Below are positions 11,523 to 54,540 of a stretch of 64,000 nt of DNA, piece by piece; within the stretch, counting starts at the first letter, position 1; each line of letters opens with the position of its first letter. The stretch comes from Methanoregula sp. SKADARSKE-2 (GTDB taxonomy: Archaea; Halobacteriota; Methanomicrobia; Methanomicrobiales; Methanospirillaceae). The position numbers and the translations under genes were made by a program. The notes beneath the pieces are model-generated. The model was given only the letters and a program-made list of their open reading frames with translations. It had not been told where the DNA came from and made no database searches. Where the stretch lies: NCBI GenBank assembly GCA_030919125.1, contig CP121470.1, positions 744,001-808,000 of the forward strand, read 5' to 3'.

Positions 11523-11566
11523 CTGCAATGTGGTGCAAAAGTCAATGCAATAATCAAGGTATTATA

Positions 11567-12618
11567 GGACTTACGCGGTTGAAGGCAGACTCGAGCAAGA
11601 AATCTTCATCACAGCACTACAAAAATAATCAGATTAGAACACCGTGGAAGCGATAAAGAGAGAAGAAGCGGATCGATGAATCGAGCGTTTCGACTCGTAC
11701 CAGCTGGAACCTGTATTCAATCGATGGGTTTCGAGGCGAAGAAATGCCAGCAACGAGAGCAGAATATGTCCTTGTTGAACAACCTCTTTTGGGACGTTTC
11801 CGATGCATCGAGAATATCGGTAGCCCAATGTTCGGGTTCCTTATCAGAGTGAACGATCCTAAATAGCTTGATGAAACCGTATTGTCTCAGATGAACAACT
11901 CTTCCTTCGGGAGGAATCTCAATCTCAGAAACTGAACGGTTGTACGTATTATCAGGATCAACCAACTGGTTGGATTTGAGACGGGTACACCAATGCCACT
12001 TCAGCGTGCGGATCAATTTCAGGTTGGCGATACTCGAATACCACGAATCAAAGATGACACATCCCGGCTGAAACTTTCTTTCTTCGGCTGCTCGTAGCAT
12101 ATCCCGGAAATGATCATTTTTGTTTTTCCCGTCTTTGTCTGGACAATAGATCCGGAAATCTACCGAAACTATCGCAGAACCATCAGTCCAAATGGTTGAG
12201 ATTAGGTTGATTCCCTGAACTACCCGATGATGCTTCCCACTCCAGTGCCGGGTCACCAGTTCAATCTGATGGGAATACGGTTTGTCGAGGGTACTATCAT
12301 CGATTACCAATACTCCTTCGTTAGCCCGGAGCAACCGTTGCGCTTCCTCATACAGCGCCCCCGTGTGGTGAGGCTGGCTGCCTCTCTAACAAACGCTTGA
12401 CGGAAGCGTGAGCTATTGATACTGGTTCAGCGGGAAAACACCGGGATGCCTCTGTACACGAGCAAACCTGATACGTCGATATCAGAAAGTTTACAAAATT
12501 GCCGCTCGTGCATTTCGGAGGATTCACTCTCGTTCGATCTCCATCCCGGGTTTGTCTAACCCATGGATGGGCGCTACTAACTCTTAGATCTTTCGGTCCA
12601 AACCAAGGGCGTAAGTCC
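11567..12618 (-). mobile_element. IS701/IS4-like element 'A', copy 1 (1052 bp)
   Basis: Perfect 10-bp terminal inverted repeats GGACTTACGC (11567-11576) and GCGTAAGTCC (12609-12618) enclose one minus-strand transposase gene. Its two ends, about 100 bp on the left and about 265 bp on the right, are nearly identical to the ends of the 402-bp element at 54139-54540, which lacks the middle. The right end lies about 25 bp from the start of an IS5-type transposase, so element A probably inserted in that element's promoter end. Confidence 0.75.
11634..12527 (-). pseudogene. Transposase of element A (DDE, IS701/IS4-like), frameshifted
   Basis: The N-terminal part starts with GTG at 12527 (MNPPKCTSG) and runs to QPASPH. 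A +1 change in the run of five G near 12356 then moves to the frame GALYEEAQRLL, VIDDSTLDKPYS (first catalytic Asp), IFDSWYSS (second Asp) and RLKSNQLVDPD. A further shift near 11760 leads to HILLSLLAFLRLETHRLN. At least two frame errors mean this copy cannot make an intact protein. The DSTLDKPY and SWYSS motifs are typical of IS701-like transposases. Confidence 0.7.
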
Positions 12619-12642
12619 TACTTAGTACGACCAATGACGAGT

Positions 12643-51261: not shown

Positions 51262-51338
51262 CCTTCGCAACCCGGAAAGATCTTACAGTCTTCAAAGAAA
51301 ATCTGGAAAGAGAAGATGGACTCAGGTGGTTTGAACCC
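51262..51338 (-). repeat. Left copy of tRNA-Ala 3'-end repeat
   Basis: 77 bases closely similar to 61294-61369, where the sequence covers the last 22 bases of tRNA-Ala(UGC) and about 54 bases downstream of it. Here only the tRNA end remains (TGGACTC-GGT-TTGAACCC), with no acceptor 5' half. Same orientation as the right copy. Interpreted as a possible attachment-site scar; see findings. Confidence 0.6.
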
Positions 51339-51407
51339 AGTACTTCACTAATTTTTAGCTCGGGCTAACGAACGGCGAAAGATCTAAATAGGCAGCGGGC
51401 GCCGAAT

Positions 51408-52572
51408 ATGCCCAAATACCGGCAAATTGCCCGTCGAACTCAGGAGACGTTGAGTGCAGAAGAATGTTCCGAAATTGCAGTTGCAGCACTCAATCGGAAT
51501 CTCACCATTTCTATCAATGGAACACTAAAACAAAAAACGATTATTCAGGCTTTGGTTGGGATGTCAGCGAACAAACACTCCGTGCATTCAGTCGATAAAG
51601 TTCTCGAGAAGATCCCTTGTGAAACATCGGTCAGATACCATTTATCCAAAATAGATCTTGATTCACTTCAGGAAATACAATCGAAGATTCTCACGTATTC
51701 TCAAAATACTATTCTCGTCCCGGGAAAACCGTTCCATTTTGCCATAGATTTCACCAACGATCCTTATTATGGCGAGATCGTCAACGCGAATGAAAACTAT
51801 GTCATAAAATGTAAGATGAAAGATTCGACGACGAAATTCTATTCGTACGTCTCCCTTTATATCGTCACAAAAGGTTAACGGCTGACTCTCGCAGTTTTCC
51901 CTACGAAAAAAGGAGTACCGAACGTTGAGTACCTTCGAAGATTTCTGAAGATCATCGCTGACATGAAAGGTGAAAATTACCGTTCTCTGTCTTGATAGGG
52001 ATTTTTATTCAAAAGATGTCTTTACATTTCTCCAGAATGAGGATGTTCCGCACATCGTTCCGGTGAGAAAACACGGCGAGGAACTTAAGAAAATCCTAAC
52101 CGGTAACCATTCCCGTTACGACCGGTATACAATGAGAGGGAATGGGACCGGTGAACCAGTTGAGCTTACCTTGGCGATCGATGTTCAATATCATCGGGGC
52201 AGAAATAAAAAACACGGGAATGTGAATCTCGGTTACGTTGTTCACGGTATCGACTGGAATCTCCGGAAGGTCTACTCGATCTACAAGAACAGATTCGCTA
52301 TCGAGTCCTCGTACCATATGCGGAATATTGTCAAAGCTAAGACCTCATCCAGAAACGTGGTGCTAAGGTACCTCTTGACAATTATCTCGTTTCTTCTCAA
52401 GAATATCTGGGTGGCCCTGAAAGGGAATTACTCCGCCAGGATCCAACGAGGGCCAAGAACCATCGACGATGATTTGTTCCGATTCGATTGCTTCCGGATC
52501 TTTGTCTGGGAAGGGATCAAGAAAAAACTCAGGCCCATCACTTCTGTGGCGGTTCTCCGAAGTTTGGGTTGA
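51408..52572 (+). pseudogene. ISH3-like transposase with a stop and a frameshift
   Basis: The first frame begins MPKYRQIARRTQETLSAEEC and contains FHFAIDFTNDPYYG with a catalytic-type Asp pair. A TAA at 51876-51878 interrupts it (YIVTKG, stop, then RLTLAVFPTKKGVPNVEYL). Near 51968 a frame change leads to VLCLDRDFYSKDVF, the RYDRYTMRGNG region, YKNRFAIESSYHMRN and the C-terminus at 52572. These blocks match ISH3-type transposases. A fragment of the same gene occurs at 61080-61295. Confidence 0.72.
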
Positions 52573-52858
52573 ACTGAGGTTGGGTTGATTGATGACTAAT
52601 CAAATTGCAGGGAGGAAAATTTAGAGAAGTACTGAGTCTGCTGTCTCAAATGGCCTCTCCCGAAATTCTGGTTTGCTTGAGGGTTAACGTTCCCAGTCTC
52701 GTTAGCAAAGTTCTCGGCTTACTACCATTTCTCCGTCCAACTCGATCCTTCGTTCGTTCATATCGTTTGGCTCCTGCCTGCTGTTCTGATTCATACTGCA
52801 TGACGGGGTTGAGAAAAAATCTTTCGGGACTGTACAGTCGAAACCAAGTGCGTAAGTC
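52573..52858 (+). mobile_element. Right end of a third element A-like copy
   Basis: The last bases before the IS256 element read AAACCAAGTGCGTAAGTC, identical to the right end of element A (54525-54541), and the ATCTTTCGG block just upstream (52826-52834) also occurs there. The rest of the stretch has no recognisable gene. The terminal repeat is cut by the IS256 element and resumes at 54121. Confidence 0.55.
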
Positions 52859-54120
52859 GGTAGTGTACACGAAGTGCTGTAAAAGTGAAGATGCCCTGTA
52901 TCCAAGTGAGAAACGAGAAAGAGGAACAGGGCATGAACCTAAGAGATATCGTACTAAATTATCTTGCCGATAACGAGAAGGGGATGCAGCAACTCATCAC
53001 CTGGTGGTTTCTGAACGATGTGATGAAAGAAGAAGTAGCCCAGCAAGCCGGTGTACCGCGGTATGCGAGGTCGAGCGCGAGGAAAGCACACCGGAACGGG
53101 TATCGACAACGGTCACTGAAGACGAGATTCGGAGAACTTCTTCTCCAGAATCCTCAGTTGAGAGAGAGCCCGTTTGAGACAAAAGTCTTCGAGTGGTACT
53201 CCCGGACTGAGAAAGCCCTCGTGAATGCGATCATTGAATCATATCTTTAAGGGAGTATCGACACGAAATGTTGAGACGGTAATCTCCCATCTGGGCGTCA
53301 GCCAGCTCTCTGCATCGTACGTGTCGAAGGTAGCTCAGGAACTCGATGAAAGAGTCCATGATTTTATGGAGAGATCAATTGACTCTCCTGTTCCATTCTT
53401 GTTCGTTGATGCTTCGTATTTCAAGGTGAGAGACGAAAGTCCGGTATGTCAACAAAGCTCTTTTTGTCGTAGCCGGTGTGAGGACGGATGGATACCGTGA
53501 GATCTTTGCTTTCAGCATTGCAGATGCAGAACACGAATTAACCTGGGAAGGGATCTTCTCGGACCTCAAGGAGAGAGGACTCAATAAAGTTGACCTCATC
53601 ATTTCTGATGGTCATCCCGGCATCCAGACTGCTGCGGAAACGATGTTTCCGGGCTCGTCATGGCAGATGTGTCACGTACACTTCATCCGTGCTGTCCTCA
53701 GGAAAGTACCACGAAAATATCACAAGGAAATTGCCGAGACATTGAAGGAATGCCTGAGTGATTCCCATCGATTGCAAGAGTTCGCTGTTCAGCTCAATGA
53801 ACGTGGACTCGCTCGGGCTGCTGACACGATTCATCGGTTCAACCATGGGTTGATAAATTACCGAGCCTTTCCTCCAGAGTTCTGGAAGAAAATCAGGACT
53901 ACCAATCTCCTGGAACGAGTCAATAAGGAACTTAAACGCAGGACGAGAAAGATCGGGGCCTTCTCTAATGATGCTTCATTGCTCAGACTTGCCGGTTCGA
54001 TTCTCATCGATATTAGCGAGGAATGGATTACTACCGGTAACCGGTATTTATCCGCAAAGAGCGCGATGAACTCTCTGGATATAGGTGCTGCCGATTTTAC
54101 ACCAATAGAGAGACACTACC
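52859..54120 (+). mobile_element. IS256-family element, 1262 bp, with 8-bp target duplication
   Basis: Left end GGTAGTGTACACGAAGTGCT and right end (read inward) GGTAGTGTCTCTCTATTGGT share the first eight bases and further matches such as TGTAAAA, forming imperfect inverted repeats. The flanks are CGTAAGTC on both sides (52851-52858 and 54121-54128), an 8-bp duplication as usual for IS256. The element therefore jumped into the terminal repeat GCGTAAGTCC of an older element A copy. Confidence 0.85.
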
Positions 54121-54125
54121 CGTAA
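52933..54125 (+). pseudogene. IS256/mutator-type transposase with two +1 frameshifts
   Basis: It starts MNLRDIVLNYLADNEKGM after GAGGAACAGG. The mutator-family DDE regions are PFLFVDASYFKVRD, DLIISDGHPGIQTAAETMFPG, WQMCHVHFIRAVLRKVP and RTTNLLERVNKELKRRTRKIG. An extra T at about 53248 (CTTTAAGGG for YLKG) and an inserted base near 53440 (after FKVRD) break it into three frames. The stop codon TAA (54123-54125) lies in the target-site duplication, outside the element. Confidence 0.85.
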
Positions 54126-54138
54126 GTCCTATTTACTA

Positions 54139-54540
54139 GGACTTACGCGTTTGAAGGCAGATTCGAGCAAGAAATATTCATCACAGCACTACAAAAATAA
54201 TCAGATTAGAACGCCGTGGAAGCGATAAAGAGAGAATAGGTTGATTCCCTGAACTACCCGATGATAGCGCCCTCGTGTGGTGAGGCTGGCTGCCTCTCTA
54301 ACAAACGCTTGACGGAAGCGTGAGCTATTGATACTGGTTCAGCGGGAAAACACCGGGATGCCTCTGTACACGAGCAAACCTGATACGTCGATATCAGAAA
54401 GTTTGCAAAATTGCCGCTCGTGCATTTCGGAGGATTCACTCTCGTTCGATCTCCATCCCGGGTTTGTCTAACCCATGGATGGGCGCTACTAACTCTTAGA
54501 TCTTTCGGTCCAAACCAAGTGCGTAAGTCCTATTTACTTA
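54139..54540 (-). mobile_element. Internally deleted element A (402 bp, MITE-like)
   Basis: The same perfect ends GGACTTACGC/GCGTAAGTCC and the same outer sequences as 11567-12618 are present. About 96 bp of the left end are joined to a short middle block (TTGATTCCCTGAACTACCCG, 54239-54262, also at 12208) and to the right end from about 54267. The transposase is thus missing except for its N-terminal 55 codons (start GTG at 54439). Flanks are TATTTACTA and TATTTACTTA, so a target duplication of seven or eight bases is visible. Such derivatives can move only with a transposase supplied in trans. Confidence 0.8.

Follow-up and report, generated by a model that had tools for sequence, protein, structure and literature searches.

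A nest of insertion sequences (ISs) was identified between positions 51336 and 54537 of the window, i.e., the whole 64,000-nt stretch of DNA that was analysed. Two of its members belong to an IS701-like type designated element A, of which the ends read TAGGACTTACGC...GCGTAAGTCCTA. The features of the site, together with a comparison copy of element A from the same window, are given below by window position and strand.

11565 to 12620, minus strand: comparison copy of element A, the 1,052-bp variant, with an 89-bp internal deletion common to four copies
51336 to 52636, plus strand: ISH3-family insertion sequence, ends CCCAGTACTTC/GAAGTACTGAG, the transposase of which is broken by a frameshift and an in-frame TAA; NF033541 matches to both ORF halves, each below the cut-off
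52639 to 52821, minus strand: 183-bp fragment of a different IS256-family element, transposase antisense, with 88-93% identity to three other loci
52822 to 52858, plus strand: relic of an element A-type (IS701-like) right end, with 22 nt that repeat the end of element A
52851 to 52858, plus strand: left copy of the 8-bp target duplication of IS256, CGTAAGTC
52859 to 54120, plus strand: IS256-family insertion sequence of 1,262 bp with NF033543 and PF00872 matches; frameshifts split its transposase
54121 to 54128, plus strand: right copy of the 8-bp target duplication of IS256, CGTAAGTC
54129 to 54131, plus strand: last three bases of the relic (C and TA), beyond IS256
54132 to 54136, plus strand: TTTAC, target duplication (5 bp) on the left of the deleted element A
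54137 to 54532, minus strand: element A deletion derivative of 392 bp (396 bp with the TA ends), with two internal deletions, aligned to the genome consensus
54533 to 54537, plus strand: TTTAC, target duplication (5 bp) on the right of the deleted element A

The IS256 element has the ends GGTAGTGTA.../...ACACTACC, which are exactly abutted by CGTAAGTC on both sides. The junctions read GTGCGTAAGTC / GGTAGTGTACACG around 52859 and GAGACACTACC / CGTAAGTCC around 54121, and a chance match of 8 bp at exactly these edges is expected about once in 65,000. The C-terminal ORF matched PF00872 (Transposase_mut; 3.6e-46) and NF033543 (172.9 bits; cut-off 150). Target duplications of the IS256 family are 8-9 bp long. 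The duplication here is real, because it abuts both ends of an element with IS256-type terminal repeats and family matches. The first-pass annotation had described IS256 as nested in an element A-type terminal repeat with a perfect 8-bp target duplication, and this description was confirmed. The transposase of the element was divided over three ORFs, and an intact frame was absent. A second near-identical copy, located at G000:C1:1379656-1380914, had the same frameshifts and differed in seven alignment columns. When the flanks of two other IS256 copies with both ends in this genome were compared, no target duplication was found.

The stretch left of IS256 had been annotated as an element A-like copy. 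By a genome search with 51300-52858, it was resolved into three pieces, and the element A-type part was only a right-end relic of about 40 bp in total (52822-52858 plus 54129-54131), preceded by the 183-bp IS256-family fragment and the ISH3-family element. The fragment contains a PF00872 match (52676-52819, minus strand), and at its three other loci it runs on as an IS256-family transposase gene. The ISH3-family copy (52638 as right limit of the match from 51336) was identical over 1,303 bp to G000:C1:4069-5371, and both copies share the in-frame stop and the frameshift. The two ORF halves scored 90 and 142 bits with the ISH3-type profile NF033541, the 225-bit cut-off of which is meant for an intact protein; no ISH3 copy in the genome attained this cut-off. 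No target duplication was found in the compared flanks of either copy, and a flanking deletion is possible for 51336-52636.

The relic holds a 10-bp palindromic insertion, GACTGTACAG, at the place where relatives from other genomes have TCGAAACCAAGTGCGTAAGTCC. A perfect 12-bp palindrome, GACTGTACAGTC, lies at about 52828-52839; the insertion in the relic end contributes 10 bp of it, and the palindrome was not found in any related element examined. The end state of the relic is TCGAAACCAAGTGCG (TCG), the same as in the elements of other genomes. The 392-bp copy shows TCCAAACCAAGTGCG (TCC), and the bulk of element A copies show TCAAAACCAAGGGCG.

The annotation had suggested a genome-wide look for further copies of element A. 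About 30 places were found in the genome (1.95 Mb), and most copies were more than 99% identical. Full copies are mostly 1,141 bp, four copies have 1,052 bp with a common 89-bp deletion, and one has 392 bp. The named relatives nearest to this genome are Methanoregula and other Methanomicrobiales MAGs. Left and right flanks of element A were compared in every register, against mixed pairs. Among the 25 copies in which both ends are present, TA precedes GGACTTACGC in every one and follows GCGTAAGTCC in 23, and the elements of relatives have the same TA at their ends. Just outside the TAs, a perfect 5-bp duplication was found in five of the 25 copies, vs 0.3 expected from mixed pairs, and two more copies have 4-bp matches (TTTA at 76725 and TTCG at 1043155). 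Among relatives, GTTCT surrounds the intact copy of HGW-Methanomicrobiales-3, and AAAAT surrounds a copy in Methanoregula UBA154. A further set of 16 copies from other methanogens, nearly all from one Methanosarcina MAG, gave exactly 5 bp in 11, 6 bp in three and 4 bp in one; mixed flank pairs in this set matched in 0.4%. The target duplication of element A is thus mostly 5 bp and not the 8 bp that the annotation had implied.

The deleted copy was found to be a single 392-bp form in the genome, and the earlier length of 402 bp is replaced by 392 bp between the GGAC...GTCC ends. Its intact ends and its position, bordering directly on an element A-type end, were as annotated. By alignment, it comprises consensus positions 1-98, 726-754 and 877-1141 with six substitutions, i.e., a 1,141-bp IS701-like element with internal deletions of about 622-627 and 122 bp. 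No functional transposase is present in it. The element is flanked by TATTTACTA (54130-54138) and TATTTACTT (54531-54539). The annotation had implied that the flanking repeat TATTTACT is the duplicated target, and the letters are indeed present on both sides. The repeat TATTTACT(A/T) breaks down into TA from the end of the adjoining element, TTTAC, and one further base (T). Because the genome-wide flanks put TA inside the element end, the target duplication is read here as TTTAC, 5 bp. An 8-bp duplication would draw on the two TATTTACT copies and on a similar 8-bp match, TATAACTT, at another copy (G000:C1:653391), but the match across element A copies is limited to 5 bp outside the TA ends, and the copies of other methanogens, with 5 bp in 11 of 16 and never 7, already contradict it. 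It is therefore considered highly improbable. The 392-bp copy either moved in trans in that form or was shortened after insertion, and the TTTAC pair fits either.

It was also considered that one element A, together with a 5-bp flank, was locally duplicated in tandem to give the relic and the 392-bp copy, the left member being destroyed afterwards, so that a second insertion would be unneeded. Both right ends do have AAACCAAGTGCGTAAGTCCTATTTACT, 17 bp of which form an exact repeat extending past the element end. This flank repeat, however, is accounted for by the 5-bp target duplication and the element's own TA. The AAGTGCG common to both was rejected as a sign of local duplication, since the elements of relatives and a third relic at G000:C1:1533428 are in the same, ancestral state. 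The relic also has TCG, like the relatives, against TCC in the 392-bp copy, and carries the 10-bp insertion. Tandem duplication is thus improbable. Because TCGAAACCAAGTGCG matches the ends of relatives and not the neighbour's TCCAAACCAAGTGCG, the relic is taken as an older and separate insertion.

That the deleted copy inserted next to the relic is concluded from one 5-bp duplication, a length at which mixed flanks match by chance in about 1%. An assembly artefact at repeats was also considered as the source of the arrangement. Flanks were unmatched in 18 of 25 element A copies of the genome, as misjoined repeats would also yield, and the contig starts exactly at an element A end. However, IS256 and the deleted element both have matching duplications at the site, which a misjoin would not make, and an artefact is very unlikely.

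Across the genome, a 4-5 bp duplication was kept in seven of 25 element A copies, vs 15 of 16 in relatives (4-6 bp). Unmatched left flanks matched the unmatched right flanks of other copies in six cases, vs 1.4 in shuffled flanks (p about 0.008). The low share of matching flanks implies exchange between copies by recombination, or assembly joins at repeats. The clearest example concerns the copies that end at 1261195 and 1032783. The left flank of the former and the right flank of the latter resemble two pieces of a single IS256 element, and TTAAT was found at the junction of both pieces (G000:C1:1032783 and 1260055; L025, L029). The copies at G000:C1:1440760 and 1591856 (L031, L034) have 169 bp of identical left flank and differing right flanks. 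At window 11565-12620 the flanks TATTA and CTTAG are unmatched, and gene order on either side may be rearranged. Flank exchange is a caution against trusting the gene order of this genome at face value.

Transposase genes of element A were broken in a common way. Compared with an intact relative (L057, 325 aa), all copies examined have an extra CAGC, a 4-bp tandem duplication, and the copies that keep the second site also have one additional base close to the 3' terminus of the gene. The frameshifts were seen, e.g., in window 11565-12620 and in L012:2026-3166. An intact IS701-like transposase was not found among the element A copies in this genome, and a 264-aa catalytic-core ORF persists in most full-length copies. 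General sequencing error is an unlikely cause, as one lesion is a 4-bp tandem duplication common to copies and the neighbouring genes have long open frames. Restoration of the frame in the 1,052-bp copies, which show a 320-aa open frame, was rejected, as the catalytic part lies in another frame. The long reading frame obtained on removing the window's 1,052-bp copy arises by chance and merges into a transposase-like ORF downstream. The spread of the element A family appears to postdate the breakage of its transposase. From the lesions common to element A copies, to the two full IS256 copies and to the two ISH3 copies, these families seem to have spread, in part at least, after inactivation. 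Such spread would imply assistance in trans or the later loss of a source. A fuller account, that the family expanded after inactivation by the shared frameshifts, moved by a now-lost enzyme or by the 264-aa core ORF alone, and that recombination between its copies has since scrambled the chromosome, is tentative and rather doubtful.

Taken together, it is highly likely that the relic came first, that the 392-bp element A inserted at its edge in TTTAC and that IS256 separately inserted inside its terminal repeat, all by ordinary DDE-type transposition. An IS701-like element would have inserted first and later lost all but about 40 bp at its right end; an ISH3-family element and remains of a further IS256-family element lie next to it. 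The 392-bp element A would then have taken the exact edge of the relic and duplicated TTTAC, moved by a transposase in trans or shortened after insertion, and IS256 would separately have entered the terminal repeat of the relic, duplicating 8 bp. As IS256 lies inside the relic end and the deleted copy lies at the relic edge, both are later than the relic. This part of the annotated order stood, while the placing of the IS256 jump after the deleted copy did not, as the anatomy orders neither before the other. In a right-flank search of 59 related genomes no orthologous site was found, and the order is drawn from the anatomy only. The ends, the duplications and the nesting were read directly in the DNA, and the action of a transposase in trans is our inference; the enzyme that moved the deleted copy was not seen, i.e., an intact IS701-like transposase is absent from the present genome.

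The site is a genuine but ordinary IS nest with known IS kinds throughout. It serves as a clean illustration of IS nesting, the correct reading of which needs genome-wide comparison, and the apparent 8-9 bp duplication resolves into TA ends plus 5 bp. By the same comparison, the termini of a methanogen IS701-like group were fixed, and so was its target duplication of mostly 5 bp.

The elements were compared with known families. The IS256 element resembles the IS256 family (PF00872; NCBIfam NF033543) in transposase homology, terminal inverted repeats and the 8-bp target duplication, but differs in its broken transposase frame, here and in the other full-length copy. The ISH3-family element (NCBIfam NF033541) is alike in apparent transposase homology over two ORF halves, each scoring below the family cut-off, and in archaeal host and length of about 1.3 kb, and unlike in the broken frame and the absent flanking duplication at 51336-52636; the target duplication of this family is about 5 bp (PMC2266710).

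Element A shares the IS701-type DDE transposase of the IS701 family (NF049921). Its largest transposase ORF, though a fragment, matched NF049921 (transpos_IS701_2) at 4.2e-78 and 263 bits (cut-off 250), and the older model NF033540 gave 67.9 bits against a cut-off of 150. IS701 elements have a length of 1,400-1,550 bp (PMC2266710), whereas element A has 1,141 bp here and mostly 1,084-1,139 bp in relatives. For the IS701 family, duplications of exactly 4 bp are reported (De Palmenaer et al. 2008, PMC2266710), whereas that of element A is mostly 5 bp in its own genome and in relatives, and it is therefore called IS701-like. Its TAGGACTTACGC ends fit the published IS701 terminal consensus (PMC2266710) weakly.

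In a Methanosarcina MAG, MITE-like elements were observed that share the TAGGACTTACGC ends and are about 113 bp long (L077, about 473-589 and 1757-1874). The 392-bp form differs from MITE-like internally deleted IS derivatives in being single-copy, with movement in that form a possibility, but it resembles them in that both ends are kept, the transposase is absent and a target duplication is present.
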